Origin: Marinobacter sp.
GTDB lineage: Bacteria > Pseudomonadota > Gammaproteobacteria > Pseudomonadales > Oleiphilaceae
DNA: 64,000 bases
Direction of reading: 5' to 3'
NCBI GenBank assembly: GCA_018402255.1
Contig: JAGYIS010000009.1
Location: 310,001-374,000 of the forward strand
Below the pieces are notes generated by a model. It searched no databases, had not been told where the DNA came from, and saw only the letters and a list, made by a program, of their open reading frames with translations. Every line of letters starts with the position of its first letter. Positions within the stretch are counted from its first letter, which is position 1. Shown here piece by piece: positions 47,437 through 53,582 of the stretch. Made by a program: the position numbers and the translations under genes.

Positions 47437-49248
47437 TCAGCGCAGCCAGTTTCGAACCTGCATGACCAGTCTCTCGCTTTCCGAGCGGGCCTCCCGCTCC
47501 GCAAGCAGTTTGGCGAGGACGTCCGGGCGGTCAGTGATAATGTTGTCAACGCCCATGTCCAGAAAGCGGGCCATGTCTTGCGGTTGGTTGACTGTCCACA
47601 CGTGCAGTTCATTATCGGCTTTGTGGGCTCTGGCAACAGCCGCCGGGTTGGCCCGGTTCATACGCAACGCCAGAATGTCGTAACGGTCTTGCCACAGTGG
47701 CCCTACCACAAACTGGGCCAGCAGTGCGGTTTTCAGTCTGGGCTCCATGTTCTTGGCTTGCTCCAGAACTGGCCAGTCCGCTGCCGCCAGTATGGTCCCC
47801 TCCACGGCGTCTTTGTCTTGTAAGGTTCGGATAACCTCCGCCACCAGTGCTTCCTCGTTCCGGTTCGGCTTCAGATCGACGAACAGTCGGGACTGGCCGC
47901 GCACGGCGTCAATGGCTTGCGCCAGCGTGGCGATGCTTTCGCCGGCGAAACTGACATCAAACCATGAGCCTGCATCCAGCGCCTGGATGTCTTCGAAATC
48001 GACGTCGGTGATACGTTCCGGTTTTCCGAAAATGCGCTGCATGTCGGCGTCGTGCCAGAGCACAGCGACGCCATCACGGGTCAGTTGGACATCTATCTCA
48101 ATATAATCTGCACCGTCCCTGACCGCCTGATGGATGGCGCTCAGGCTGTTTTCCGGCGCTTTGAAGGCGCTGCCGCGGTGGGCGGTAATGGTCGCATGGT
48201 CGTTTTGCTCCAGCGATGTGACCACCCAGAAACCTTGAAGGAGTACCAGTACGATGACCAGTCCCTCCAGTAACCAGGCCTCCAGGCCGGTTCTCGTGCT
48301 GGGTGGAGTTACCGATGGCTGCAGCCAGTGCGCCTGGTGACCGGTAATGCTCTGATACCGGGCGACGATCAGCGTACCAAGAGCTGAGCTGGCCAGAAAG
48401 GTCAATGCAAGGCCTGTCAGCAGGTATCCACCTATCAGCAGGATGACCGTTGGCAGCAGAACCGGCATGGTCTCTGGCAACACCTGAAACAGGCTCGCCG
48501 CCAGCAGGTTAAAAGTCAGGGTCACCAGTGCTGGAGCCAGAAAGATCGCCAGTATGCCTAGGGCCAGAGTGCCAGCAGCTGTCCGTGGCGTGCCTGCAGT
48601 GCGTTGCAGGCTTTGCCGAAGCGCAGGAATTGGTGGCACTCCCTCTAACATCAAAATCGGTATGGCCAGAATCCAGCGGAGGAACAAGGCTCCGTTTACC
48701 AGTGTAAGGCCTGCGAACATGACCGCACAGAAGCCCGCAAACCACCATAGAATGGCCGGGCGCTCAAGGTTAAGAAGGTAGGGGTCGTAATGTGTCAGCA
48801 ACAGATGCCAGGCAATTCCGACCCCTGTGATAAAGGGCAGGGCCAGCACAAGATGGGCTGCGGTCTGCAGGGTGGCCAAGGCTGCCAGTGCTGGAAAGCG
48901 TCGGCCAACCCCCCAAAGGGCCCGGGTGGTGGCTCGCAGTGAATGGTCTTTTGGTTGGGCGGCGATCAGGGTAATGCTGGCCTGCTGGAGTATGATCAGT
49001 AGCGCCGTGAACAGCACGGTAATCAATAACCAGAGTGCACCGCCAGCAGAGGTCAGGAATTCGAGTAAGCCGCCGGTGGTGATGGCAGCATCCCCGGTCA
49101 AAGGCCGGAGTGCGGACAGGGCTGCGGTCACCAGCGGCGTGATCACCGCAATAGAAAGCCCGGTGAAGGTCAGATAGAGCACCAGTAACGAGCGATGGTG
49201 ATGCCTGAGAAGTGCCATCGCCTGTCGTGTCAGGGCGTTCAGGCTCAT
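47437..49248 (-). CDS. Membrane-domain glycerophosphodiester phosphodiesterase
   Basis: 603 residues. Residues about 1-345 form a membrane region of about 7-8 hydrophobic segments, as in the GPDPase membrane-domain family, with a last TM GLEAWLLEGLVIVLVLLQGFWVVTSL. The C-terminal GDPD barrel follows: ITAHRGSAFKAPENSLSAI (His-Arg), EIDVQLTRDGVAVLWHD, LFVDLKPNRNEEA, VWTVN and DNIITDRPD. It would release glycerol-3-phosphate from glycerophosphodiesters, presumably outside. Its ATG overlaps the LtaS-like stop by 4 bp, so the pair is coupled. This architecture is best known from Gram-positives. Confidence 0.88.
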   Translation of the reverse strand: MSLNALTRQAMALLRHHHRSLLVLYLTFTGLSIAVITPLVTAALSALRPLTGDAAITTGGLLEFLTSAGGALWLLITVLFTALLIILQQASITLIAAQPKDHSLRATTRALWGVGRRFPALAALATLQTAAHLVLALPFITGVGIAWHLLLTHYDPYLLNLERPAILWWFAGFCAVMFAGLTLVNGALFLRWILAIPILMLEGVPPIPALRQSLQRTAGTPRTAAGTLALGILAIFLAPALVTLTFNLLAASLFQVLPETMPVLLPTVILLIGGYLLTGLALTFLASSALGTLIVARYQSITGHQAHWLQPSVTPPSTRTGLEAWLLEGLVIVLVLLQGFWVVTSLEQNDHATITAHRGSAFKAPENSLSAIHQAVRDGADYIEIDVQLTRDGVAVLWHDADMQRIFGKPERITDVDFEDIQALDAGSWFDVSFAGESIATLAQAIDAVRGQSRLFVDLKPNRNEEALVAEVIRTLQDKDAVEGTILAAADWPVLEQAKNMEPRLKTALLAQFVVGPLWQDRYDILALRMNRANPAAVARAHKADNELHVWTVNQPQDMARFLDMGVDNIITDRPDVLAKLLAEREARSESERLVMQVRNWLR

Positions 49249-51116
49249 GGGTCTTGCGGCGTCTGAAGCGTTGCACTTTCGGTCAGTGCAAAACGCTCCT
49301 CAATGGTCAGAAATGGATCGCCTTCGACTTCCTGCAGACTACCAAACAGACGGTCCGGATCGAATGACCAGGTACTGCACCGAGTCATCAGTTCTGTGCA
49401 GGCGAGCAGGGTGCCGGTTTCCCGCAGGAAGTACTTCATCCCGGTGTAGGTGTCGGCAAGCATGATGTCTCGTGATTTTGCGATATCGGTAGTCAGCAGG
49501 CTGCGGCCAATCATGCGGCCGGCCTTGTCACCATGACCGGTCACATCGAGGATGGTGATGGGTATGTCCAGTTGCGTGACTATCCGGTTGTCAGGTGCAA
49601 GTTGGTCCAGATACGCTTTACTGGGCGGGCGAATGGCGAGCACACCTAGATTGCTGTTGAGTGGCAAGGATTCGTGGTCGTCCCGGATAAATCCGCCGGA
49701 CTCATCGGAGCTGACAATAACCAGTGTGTTGTCGAGCACCCCTTCTTGCTCAAGGTCGACCAACAGACGCTCCAGAGATTGAGCCATCACTCTCATGGCA
49801 TTGCGACGCGGGGTTTGAGCTTGAGGAAGTGCCAAACTCGCGTCTTCTGATGCCAATTGCTGGGCAGCGAGTTCTTGCTCTGCCTGCTCGCCGATTTTGA
49901 ATGGGTGATGTGTGCCCACATTCAACGTTGTCACAAACCACGGCGCCTCCTCCTCATTCAGCTGGCGCAGGCGCTGTGTAATGTTGCTGAAAAACTCGGG
50001 GTCTGGCGGCCCCCATCCATCGGATTCCTTGCCCTCGATAAATATTTTCGCGCCGGTAACGTCGTCATAGCCGGCCTGTGACATAAACGCATCTTTGTTC
50101 ATGTATTCGATCGGGGCCGCCTGCCAGTATGCGGTGTGGTAGCCCTGATCCCGGAGTTTTTCGGGCAGGCAGTCGGGCGTGACTGAGCTGCTTGCAACCG
50201 ACTGCAGTTTTTCGGACGGTCTGCGCAGATCCGGGTAGCGACCGCACACCAGAGTGTAGGTTCCGCGATCAGTTTGTCGCTCCATGCTGAGCATGTTTTT
50301 GTAGATACGGAATCCGAACTCATCAAAGGTCGCCTCCAGGGTTTCCAGAGACACTGCCGGAGCAAGGTTATGGTAATTGCTGACGGAGGGCAGATAACCC
50401 CCAGATAGTCCCTCGATCAGAATCAGCAGCACGTTGGGCCGGGATGACGGAGTCTGATTGCTGACTTCCTGGTGAAAGAAGTTCGTCCGGTTTTTGAGTG
50501 GCTCACTGATTTCGGCGGTTTCATCGCCAATGGCGGTGCCTACCGGATTCAGGATGGCGCCCGGTATCTGTGCCAGGGTGCTGGCCACGACGTTGTTTGC
50601 GGGCGTGGTCAGGCTGGGAAACGATAACGAATAGGTGATGGTCACCAACACCGTTCCGGCAAGCAGCAGCGCCGGTCGACGCTTCGACACCGGTACCCAC
50701 CGACGGTGCAGTCGATGCAACAGCCACGCGAGAGCGAGGTAGCCGGGCAGGGTCAACAAATGCATGTTCAGCAGGCTACCGGTAATAAATGTGGTGTCCA
50801 TGCCTTTGCTGGCAAAGGCAAGCTTGAACAGCGTGCCATGGGTGCCAAGGTGCATGCCGGCAACGTAAAGTGCGAAGCCAAGCACTGTGATCAGTGCACC
50901 CCGCATAATTCCGCCAGACAGCTGAAGCAGAACCGCCAGTATGAATGCGCCGGCGATGTCGCCGCCGAGACTGCCCGGCAGGCTGGGGACCACGCCGCTC
51001 TGGGCGATCAGCAATCCCCGGACGATTAACAGCCAGACCAGCGCGAGAAAAAACGTCTGTGTGATACCGGCGAGAGAAAAAGCCCGGTTCCTTTCCATTG
51101 GTGTACCTGTATGCAT
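49245..51116 (-). CDS. LTA synthase-family (alkaline phosphatase superfamily) membrane enzyme
   Basis: About 617-623 residues. About five N-terminal TM segments to about residue 185, then an extracytoplasmic sulfatase-like domain: VLLILIEGLSGG (metal Glu), nucleophile Thr in MERQTDRGTYTLVCG, NVGTHHPFKIG, and VIVSSDESGGF where the family normally has an Asp-His pair. LtaS and OpgB transfer glycerol-phosphate; EptA-like relatives transfer phosphoethanolamine. The coupling to a GDPD makes glycerol-phosphate transfer the better guess. Start ATG 51116 or the M at codon 7 (MERNRAFS). Divergent from the PQQ fusion gene. Confidence 0.82.
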   Translation of the reverse strand: MHTGTPMERNRAFSLAGITQTFFLALVWLLIVRGLLIAQSGVVPSLPGSLGGDIAGAFILAVLLQLSGGIMRGALITVLGFALYVAGMHLGTHGTLFKLAFASKGMDTTFITGSLLNMHLLTLPGYLALAWLLHRLHRRWVPVSKRRPALLLAGTVLVTITYSLSFPSLTTPANNVVASTLAQIPGAILNPVGTAIGDETAEISEPLKNRTNFFHQEVSNQTPSSRPNVLLILIEGLSGGYLPSVSNYHNLAPAVSLETLEATFDEFGFRIYKNMLSMERQTDRGTYTLVCGRYPDLRRPSEKLQSVASSSVTPDCLPEKLRDQGYHTAYWQAAPIEYMNKDAFMSQAGYDDVTGAKIFIEGKESDGWGPPDPEFFSNITQRLRQLNEEEAPWFVTTLNVGTHHPFKIGEQAEQELAAQQLASEDASLALPQAQTPRRNAMRVMAQSLERLLVDLEQEGVLDNTLVIVSSDESGGFIRDDHESLPLNSNLGVLAIRPPSKAYLDQLAPDNRIVTQLDIPITILDVTGHGDKAGRMIGRSLLTTDIAKSRDIMLADTYTGMKYFLRETGTLLACTELMTRCSTWSFDPDRLFGSLQEVEGDPFLTIEERFALTESATLQTPQDP

Positions 51117-51248
51117 TGGTTAACTTATAGAGTATGAGGCAAAGTCGGGTAGCTTCAACCGCTGGTATCCGAATGAATATCCGACTAGATTGTCTCGAGG
51201 TTTAAGGAAATGCCCGGAATTTCATGGGGTTTGCAATGAGGAAACGGA

Positions 51249-53582
51249 ATGGAACGCAGTCTGTTAACGAAAAAACCTGTCCGGATCGTAATCGCCGGTG
51301 CGGTGGCTGTGCTGTGCGGCGCCTTCCTGGGCAGTCTGGTTCAGACTCAATTTAATCTGGCGGCGCTTTCTGGGCTGGGGGCATCGTTCAGTCTGGGCGA
51401 TCGGTTGTCGGCTATGGCAATGGATCTGCTGAGCTTTGCTCCGGTTTATGCCGGCTTGCTGACTGCTGCGCTGGTTCCTGGTTTTCTGGTGACCGCAGGT
51501 TTGTTGCGCCTGTTGGGGTTGCCTTGTCGTGAGTGTTGGTTCGCGTTCGGTTCCGCCATGGCCTTGTGGGCGACGCTGACCCTGGTCGACAGCCTGGCGC
51601 CAATGCCTACGTTGATTGCGGCAACACGTTCGGCGCCTGGCTTATGGGCCATGCTGGCGACAGCGGCGGTTGCGGGCTGGGTGTTCGCCCAGATCACCAA
51701 ACTAAGGTTCACGGGCGGCAGCGGTCGGATGTCGTTGGCCATTATGGTGTTAACGGGCGTTGCGGCCAGTCCGGAACCGGCCCTGGCGGAAGTACCTGGT
51801 CAGGCGGATTACGAAGTCGAGGTGGTAGCGCAGGGCCTCGATCACCCGTGGTCGATTGCTTTTTTGTCGGGTGGCGCGGCCCTGGTGACAGAGCGCGGTG
51901 GCGTGCTCAAGCATCTGTCACCGGATGGTGAGCAAACAGTGATCAGCGGGGTGCCGGCAGTGTTTGCCTCTGGCCAGGCGGGTCTGTTTGATGTGCTGGT
52001 GAGGCCGGTTGGCGATGACCCGGTTCGAGTCTTCCTGAGCTATGCCTGTGGTCAAAGTAGCGCCAATCATTTGTGTGTCGCCAGTGGTGATCTGACCGGA
52101 ACTGAGTTGACCGATGTGCGCGAGATCTTTCGGGCCAAACCCGCGAAATATGGCAATGCCCATTATGGCGGTCGAATGGCCTGGCTGGGCGATGGCAGCT
52201 TGTTGGTTACGCTGGGCGATGGCTTTGACTTCCGGGAGGAGGCGCAACGATTATCCAGCCACATCGGCACCATCGTGCGGTTGAACCCGGACGGCTCCGT
52301 GCCCAAGGATAATCCGTTTGTAAACCATGACGGAGCGCAGCCCGAAATATTCAGTCTTGGCCACCGCAACGTGCAAGGGGTTATCTACGATGGTCGGCAA
52401 GACCGCATCATCGCCCATGAACATGGCCCCCGCGGGGGTGACGAGATCAATCTGATTCGCGGTGGTGGTAATTATGGTTGGCCCCTGGCCTCGGATGGCG
52501 TGGACTACACCGGTGCCCTGGTCACGCCGTTCCGGCGTTATGAAGGAACCATCGCACCTTTGTGGTTCTGGACGCCGTCCATTGCGCCTTCGGGGATGGC
52601 CCTTTACCACGGCCACCAGTTTCCGCAGTGGCGTGGCAACTTGTTTGTGGGCGCGCTTGCGAACAAGAGCGTACACCGGATGGTTCTGGTGGACGGCAAG
52701 GTGGTTGCCACCGAACGGCTTTTTGACGAACTGGATGAGCGCATTCGCGATGTGCGGGAGGGCCCGGACGGCGCGCTCTATCTCCTGACGGACTCGCCGG
52801 AAGGCCGGCTGCTGCGGGTGGTGCCCCGTGAGCCTCCGCAGGTTGAGATCATGGCGCTGGAGCCCGAGGCCCTGGCCTGGGTGGGTGATCAGATTTTCCG
52901 AAATGAATGTGCGGCTCGGCATCAATGCCTGGTGCACTGGAACGAGGGCGAAGCGTTTCCCTCGTTAGGTATTGGTCACTTCATCTGGTATCCCGAGGGC
53001 CAAACCGGTCGATTTACCGAGAGTTTCCCGGCTCTGCTGGCATTCATGGTTGACCAGGGCGTTGAGTTGCCGGCCTGGTTAGACACTGCCCGTCACGAGG
53101 GTGCGCCCTGGCCGGACCGGGCTGCTTTTCTGCAGCAGGCCTCCGCATCTTCTCAGGTAGAAGCGTTGCGGGACCTGCTGTATTCCACTCGGGGGCTTCA
53201 GGTGCGCTTTATCCGGGAGCGAGCGGATCAATCCCTGGCGGCGGTGGTGGCGGCTGTGCCAGGGGCCAGCCAGGCGATCGTCAGGGAGCGCTTATGGCAG
53301 TTGGGGCAAACACCGGGCGGCGTTTATGCCTTGATGGATTATGTGAATTTCAAAGGCGAAGGGCTGGCGGACACCGAGCGGTACGAGGGCGAAGGCTGGG
53401 GTCTGCTCCAGGTGCTTGCGGGGATGGAGGAGGGCGACGCTTCGACCGTGCTGGATCGGTTTCGTGAATCGGCGGGCGAGGTGCTCTCCCGTCGTGCGCA
53501 GTTGGCTGAAAATCCGATCGAACGTGAGCGCTGGTTGCCTGGCTGGCTTCGACGTCTGGAAAGCTATCGGGAGCCGGAGTAA
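51249..53582 (+). CDS. Fusion: N-terminal membrane domain, PQQ-dependent aldose dehydrogenase, uncharacterised C-terminal domain
   Basis: 777 residues. Residues 1-180 hold about five hydrophobic segments. Residues 185-530 are a six-bladed soluble-type PQQ sugar dehydrogenase (Asd/GdhB type): GLDHPWSIAFL, the His in NAHYGGRMAW, LGDGFDFREEAQRL, GSVPKDNPFV, LGHRNVQG, EHGPRGGDEINL, WTPSIAPSGMALYHG and DERIRDVREGPDG. Residues 540-777 are a conserved-looking region with FRNECAA, WNEGEAFPSLGIGHFIWYP, NFKGEGL and ERWLPGWLRR; the spacing E to GIGH recalls T4-type lysozymes, but this is weak. The whole would be periplasm-facing. PQQ and Ca are expected cofactors. Confidence 0.8.
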   Translation: MERSLLTKKPVRIVIAGAVAVLCGAFLGSLVQTQFNLAALSGLGASFSLGDRLSAMAMDLLSFAPVYAGLLTAALVPGFLVTAGLLRLLGLPCRECWFAFGSAMALWATLTLVDSLAPMPTLIAATRSAPGLWAMLATAAVAGWVFAQITKLRFTGGSGRMSLAIMVLTGVAASPEPALAEVPGQADYEVEVVAQGLDHPWSIAFLSGGAALVTERGGVLKHLSPDGEQTVISGVPAVFASGQAGLFDVLVRPVGDDPVRVFLSYACGQSSANHLCVASGDLTGTELTDVREIFRAKPAKYGNAHYGGRMAWLGDGSLLVTLGDGFDFREEAQRLSSHIGTIVRLNPDGSVPKDNPFVNHDGAQPEIFSLGHRNVQGVIYDGRQDRIIAHEHGPRGGDEINLIRGGGNYGWPLASDGVDYTGALVTPFRRYEGTIAPLWFWTPSIAPSGMALYHGHQFPQWRGNLFVGALANKSVHRMVLVDGKVVATERLFDELDERIRDVREGPDGALYLLTDSPEGRLLRVVPREPPQVEIMALEPEALAWVGDQIFRNECAARHQCLVHWNEGEAFPSLGIGHFIWYPEGQTGRFTESFPALLAFMVDQGVELPAWLDTARHEGAPWPDRAAFLQQASASSQVEALRDLLYSTRGLQVRFIRERADQSLAAVVAAVPGASQAIVRERLWQLGQTPGGVYALMDYVNFKGEGLADTERYEGEGWGLLQVLAGMEEGDASTVLDRFRESAGEVLSRRAQLAENPIERERWLPGWLRRLESYREPE

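Follow-up and report, generated by a model that had tools for sequence, protein, structure and literature searches.

Glycerophosphate transfer in Gram-negative bacteria is known mainly from OpgB (MdoB), the phosphoglycerol transferase I of E. coli, and periplasmic glucans. For the related LtaS enzymes, the mechanism runs via a glycerophospho-threonine formed from phosphatidylglycerol, and His-482 of the Listeria protein binds the metal (PMC4192460). Here we analysed a 64,000-nucleotide stretch of a Marinobacter sp. genome (contig JAGYIS010000009.1, positions 310,001 to 374,000 of the forward strand; the window), which carries a gene for an LtaS/OpgB-related protein (the LtaS-like protein) next to a gene for a glycerophosphodiesterase (GDPD) with a membrane domain. 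We find that the two genes are a real two-gene, co-inherited unit.

Like OpgB, the LtaS-like protein combines a predicted periplasmic PF00884 domain with a catalytic Thr, a WGxxD-type motif, a THHP motif and a GKD/NKD segment; unlike OpgB, it has DE rather than DH, lies outside the OpgB clade, is untied to opgG and is paired with a GDPD. With LtaS and LtaP it shares a layout of five transmembrane helices and an extracytoplasmic domain as well as the Glu, Thr and Asp metal-site residues, whereas it differs from LtaS in having DE for DH, no conserved Ser/Asn/His chain-binding triad (PMC4192460) and a Gram-negative host. YejM (PbgA, LapC) is likewise a Gram-negative LtaS relative in which the position of LtaS His476 is replaced (Arg451; PMC7576196), but the LtaS-like protein has Glu rather than Arg there, matches the YejM profile weakly and would serve a different role. 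The GDPD protein resembles UgpQ/GlpQ-type GDPDs and S. aureus LpgD in fold family and catalytic spacing, and departs from them in its seven-helix PF10110 membrane domain and its fixed pairing with the LtaS-like gene. In the titles and abstracts of the open-access literature searched, a pairing of GDPD with OpgB or LtaS was undescribed, and a literature search with the name and accession of the Pfam membrane domain (PF10110) returned nothing relevant. A co-inherited transferase/diesterase pair that is independent of OpgG suggests that Marinobacter, a common genus in the sea, modifies its envelope with glycerophosphate, or turns over lipid, by a route so far unrecognised. The pair also offers a tractable two-gene system, and its clade a natural test of the role of the metal-site His in the LtaS/OpgB superfamily.

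The LtaS-like and GDPD genes are inherited together

We surveyed presence and absence in 81 Marinobacter genomes. LtaS-like orthologues were found in 25 and membrane GDPD orthologues in 24 of these; both genes occurred in 24/81, the LtaS-like gene only in 1/81 (G006, where it lies at another site), the GDPD gene only in 0/81 and neither in 56/81 (Fisher p about 1e-19, uncorrected for shared ancestry). In the 17 loci compared, both orthologues share a strand, and the distance between them ranges from -4 to +48 nt. Furthermore, dN/dS was about 0.10-0.15 for both genes alike; both are under purifying selection. The shared strand and tight gaps, the Fisher test and the dN/dS values together place the coupling beyond chance.

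The arrangement in the window is as follows:

49245-51116, reverse strand: LtaS-like gene (623 aa; PF00884)
47437-49248, reverse strand: membrane GDPD gene (603 aa; PF10110 and PF03009)
49245-49248, reverse strand: 4-bp ATGA overlap in which the LtaS-like gene stops and the GDPD gene starts, read from the sequence
51117-51248, no strand: divergent intergenic region of 132 bp between the LtaS-like start codon and the PQQ fusion
51249-53582, forward strand: pyrroloquinoline quinone (PQQ)-dehydrogenase fusion gene (777 aa; GSDH PF07995), divergent neighbour and not a member of the module
52842-53579, forward strand: C-terminal ~245 aa of the PQQ fusion, which most Marinobacter have as a conserved protein in its own right

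The initial annotation had described the 4-bp overlap and the divergent PQQ fusion at 132 bp, and its coordinates and frames proved exact. Its proposal that the two products are probably made together agrees with the overlap, the tight gene order and the co-inheritance. A lack of conservation in relatives, one of two outcomes it had named as fatal, was not seen, the pair being kept as a unit in the 24 genomes. Its suggestion of looking for all three genes together succeeded for the pair and failed for the PQQ gene.

In most genomes with enough contig, the pair is flanked by lpxH and an FNR-type reductase gene. At this locus in two close relatives, G061 and G095 (L143, L144), the PQQ fusion directly adjoins the reductase gene, and both the LtaS-like and GDPD genes are absent. 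The nearest named record found for the LtaS-like protein was its M. excellens HL-55 counterpart (92% identical). G623, from another genus of the same order, also has the pair (53% and 45% identical), with 36 nt between the genes, but in other surroundings, which include neither a PQQ gene nor the C-terminal protein; in the tree its LtaS-like protein groups within those of Marinobacter, whose branching order is left unresolved, and this placement would fit transfer between genera. In one genome the GDPD orthologue (G079:C119:3155-4947) is broken into two frames that overlap (residues 7-399 and 399-603), as a result of either a frameshift or gene fission.

The LtaS-like protein resembles phosphoglycerol transferases

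The LtaS-like protein matched PF00884 (Sulfatase) at 69.6 bits (cut-off 25, E=3.8e-19), which places it in this superfamily, and it was the sole PF00884 match in its genome. When a profile of 16 orthologues was compared with solved structures, LtaP was the best match (1.3e-11), followed by VP1736 (4.4e-10) and LtaS (1.5e-8). Profile comparison (hhalign) matched E. coli OpgB at E=2.9e-10 (probability 96.8), whereas it gave no match to EptA (E=0.07) or OpgE (E=0.19), for which the aligned stretch lay outside the catalytic domain; the LapC/YejM match in this comparison was weak (5e-4). In these comparisons the protein resembles the phosphoglycerol-transferase kind (OpgB, LtaP, LtaS) and not the phosphoethanolamine-transferase kind, so that the firm grouping with phosphoethanolamine transferases that was to overturn the initial annotation was not seen. 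Against the NCBIfam equivalogs, the protein scored 33.8 and 47.1 bits for OpgB (NF003000 and NF009027; cut-offs 574 and 572) and 40.4 bits for LtaS (NF053595; cut-off 970). Scores so far under the cut-offs place it outside the OpgB and LtaS families proper; judged by sequence, it is related to the OpgB, phosphoglycerol transferase I and LtaS families and a member of none.

The catalytic residues are intact: E235, T282 (the nucleophile position) and D471 are invariant in the 16 orthologues and in 10 wider members. K341, W368-G369 and H403 align with OpgB motifs and are conserved. E472 is shared by all orthologues and by each member of the wider clade that was correctly read, at the position where LtaS and OpgB have His ('DE' for 'DH'); the metal-site His after Asp (LtaS His476) was thus not found in the clade, whereas it is present in OpgB, EptA, OpgE and other relatives. 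Glu at this position is distinctive, and change there has precedent in YejM. Nothing conserved in the LtaS-like alignment corresponds to the Ser/Asn/His triad at LtaS's second glycerol-phosphate site, which argues against a lipoteichoic-acid-type polymerase.

For the wide tree, we left out wrong-frame open reading frame rows (L184, L195, L197, L207), two duplicates and long-branch rows (L024, L132, L209). The DE clade comprised 18 rows, with support of 97/83 and recovery in 98% of bootstrap trees, and lay outside the OpgB clade; among its members were longer proteins of other families within the order, and some from beyond the class. A tree constrained to join the DE clade with EptA/OpgE was not formally rejected by the approximately unbiased (AU) test (p-AU 0.105); the AU test alone is insufficient, and it is the profile comparisons that separate the LtaS-like protein from EptA/OpgE. 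Structure models were built from the window and related-locus sequences with shallow alignments. The LtaS-like model was too poor to be used (mean pLDDT 45), its Foldseek matches (YejM, LtaS, sulfatases) giving superfamily placement only.

The longer DE-clade members, of 744-963 aa, have C-terminal extensions (L134:7635-10526, L135:7509-9743, L136:8047-10326, L138:8470-11076, L141:7760-10534), and no relative of the window GDPD was detected near these five genes.

The membrane GDPD and predicted topology

The GDPD protein matched both PF10110 (GPDPase_memb; 39.8 bits, cut-off 29.6, E=3e-10) and PF03009 (137.7 bits, cut-off 23.6, E=9.1e-40); it scored 140 bits against the UgpQ-type model NF006989, under the cut-off of 264 bits. 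H357, E384 and H399 are invariant in 13 orthologues, as is K460 in the alignment, and the spacing of the first three equals that of LpgD H51/E78/H93 (PMC10404611). From its residues and topology, the protein should hydrolyse glycerophosphodiesters on its partner's side of the membrane. No searched Marinobacter genome had the membrane GDPD without the LtaS-like gene. Elsewhere in the order, there are genera in which the GDPD family occurs with no LtaS-like gene, often near acnB, which indicates a function independent of the pair. At six loci of another family of the order (L170, L171, L173, L174, L176, L179), the gene is close to acnB and no LtaS-like gene accompanies it; the position near acnB may thus be old.

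Topology was predicted from family-averaged hydropathy and the positive-inside rule. Five transmembrane helices were predicted for the LtaS-like protein, with Lys plus Arg values of 2.2, 1.4 and 3.6 in inside loops against 0.1, 1.2 and 0.1 in outside loops. Seven were predicted for the GDPD, with 3.8, 4.9, 5.8 and 4.3 inside against 1.2, 1.6, 1.2 and 1.9 outside. Both catalytic domains are thereby predicted to be periplasmic, in agreement with the earlier description of the two proteins as envelope enzymes.

Proposed mechanism and alternatives

With moderate confidence, we favour a two-gene envelope module that couples phosphatidylglycerol-dependent glycerol-phosphate transfer with GDPD cleavage of diesters in the periplasm; we infer the enzymatic activities, the phosphatidylglycerol donor, the acceptor and the action of the GDPD on its partner's product from sequence. 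The LtaS-like enzyme would be an inner-membrane protein whose catalytic domain projects into the periplasm, working like OpgB and LtaS: Thr282 would attack the head-group phosphate of phosphatidylglycerol, giving a glycerophospho-threonine intermediate as diacylglycerol leaves, and the glycerol-phosphate would then be handed to an acceptor, which need not be a periplasmic glucan. The co-translated GDPD, held in the same compartment by its seven-helix anchor, would hydrolyse glycerophosphodiesters, trimming or recycling the LtaS-like product or by-products of the same phospholipid turnover.

Several points weigh against this proposal. The activities of both proteins are predictions from sequence; Glu replaces the usual metal-ligand His in the DE clade, and the metal and substrate may therefore differ; the structure model of the LtaS-like protein was poor; and each protein can act by itself, as the GDPD occurs alone in other genera and the LtaS-like protein alone in G006. 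LtaS-type products carry sn-glycerol-1-phosphate, and the characterised GlpQ GDPDs are strict for sn-glycerol-3-phosphate (PMC7086022). This stereochemistry renders a simple make-then-break scheme doubtful: either the UgpQ-like GDPD differs in specificity, or it cuts other diesters or lysophospholipids of the same turnover. Of the suggestion in the initial annotation that one enzyme transfers glycerol-phosphate and the other cleaves the diester, the phosphoglycerol-transferase kind of the first thus stood, and cleavage of exactly that bond became doubtful. A dedicated Gram-negative glycerophosphate cycle seems unlikely to us; here the DE-clade enzyme, with its altered metal site, would load a non-glucan envelope or soluble acceptor (possibly glycerol, giving diglycerol phosphate), and a membrane GDPD cutting sn-glycerol-1-phosphate diesters would remove the group again. 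Diglycerol phosphate is an osmolyte known elsewhere.

The stereochemical conflict is avoided if the two enzymes share a process, membrane remodelling or salvage, instead of one bond. The LtaS-like protein would then mainly hydrolyse the phosphatidylglycerol head group to diacylglycerol and glycerophosphate, and the GDPD would act on lyso- or deacylated phospholipids, as does S. aureus LpgD, a membrane-anchored GDPD that converts lysophosphatidylglycerol to lysophosphatidic acid (PMC10404611). That YejM, which is related to LtaS and likewise altered at the His position, has phosphatase activity (PMC7576196) is in line with such a turnover pair, as is the existence of the GDPD elsewhere without an LtaS-like partner. 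However, the conserved K341, W368-G369 and H403 fit transfer, and our motif search revealed no Pho-box-like site near the genes, including 51117-51248, where no sigma-70 consensus match was found either; Pho-box-like sites across the window as a whole were at chance level, nor did we see anything else that hinted at control by phosphate starvation. We regard turnover as a possible but tentative alternative. It is quite improbable that the LtaS-like protein is instead the organism's OpgB, placing phosphoglycerol on osmoregulated periplasmic glucans (OPG) from which the GDPD removes it. The window genome does have opgG and an adjacent opgH-like glycosyltransferase gene, as the initial annotation had advised checking, and the similarity to the OpgB profile and the lack of a second PF00884 match point the same way. 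Yet OpgG is absent from 5 of the 25 genomes with the LtaS-like gene, all of them pair-bearing (G005, G013, G031, G071, G074), and no association between OpgG and the pair was seen (20/25 with the pair against 40/56 without, p=0.58), so the co-occurrence expected of an OpgB equivalog was not observed; the placement outside the OpgB clade and the missing DH metal pair also speak against this assignment. OpgG being neither required nor associated, a periplasmic glucan is unlikely as an obligatory acceptor, and we set OPG aside as the acceptor.

A phosphoethanolamine transferase of the EptA/OpgE kind would share the superfamily and the layout of five helices plus periplasmic domain, and the AU test leaves room for it, but its catalytic domain gave no profile match where OpgB, LtaP and LtaS matched strongly; we hold this identity to be highly improbable. 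We think it equally far-fetched that the PQQ dehydrogenase is a functional partner in a three-gene module, as the initial annotation had proposed. The PQQ gene is divergent and close to the pair in the window and in L029, L030 and L145; however, the fusion occurs in only 6/81 genomes, two of them (G061, G095) devoid of the pair, and in most genomes that carry the pair just the unfused C-terminal part is nearby, with no GSDH gene beside the pair. We accordingly rejected it as a third member: the fusion is confined to some lineages and is retained where the pair is missing.

Neighbouring genes

In the window genome (G000:C4), a gene for a 513-aa membrane protein overlaps the end of opgG (L180:7406-8947). 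The protein had no Pfam or NCBIfam match, and its PDB matches were at chance level only; a late LGDHQP motif recalls alkaline-phosphatase-superfamily enzymes. We note it as a candidate glucan-modifying enzyme.

The PQQ fusion consists of a membrane segment, a GSDH domain (PF07995, residues 197-523; PQQ-dependent sugar dehydrogenase family) and the 245-aa C-terminal protein. Elsewhere the GSDH and C-terminal parts are separate genes, near each other without the pair in several genomes, such as G009 (L150), G064 and G096. In L150 (8379-11302), a membrane-GSDH gene is followed by an unfused C-terminal-protein gene at the same locus, probably the pre-fusion state of the window PQQ gene. The C-terminal protein is the usual divergent neighbour of the pair; in G720, where the LtaS-like gene is missing, its divergent neighbour is the GDPD gene by itself. 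The C-terminal protein had no Pfam or PHROGs match. Its structure model was moderate (pLDDT 72, pTM 0.77), with weak Foldseek matches, the top four of which were chitosanases (E 0.26-0.85) that we take to be GH46 enzymes; as a lead only, the protein may be a lysozyme-superfamily glycan hydrolase. It is secreted or lipoprotein-like, was matched in most or all of the searched Marinobacter (window 52842-53579; L031:6954-7820, L048:5684-6514 and others) and has the invariant signature NEC...HWNxGExFPSLGxGHFIWYP...DYVNFKGEG.

We also considered an MscK-like mechanosensitive channel as a member and rejected it, its association with the pair being insignificant (20/25 against 35/56, p=0.13). The gene adjoins many pair loci, downstream of the GDPD gene in some and beside the C-terminal protein in others (for example, L031:4267-6951, L039:11915-14578 and L041:12389-15139); in the window genome it is located elsewhere, at G000:C7:679423-681963.

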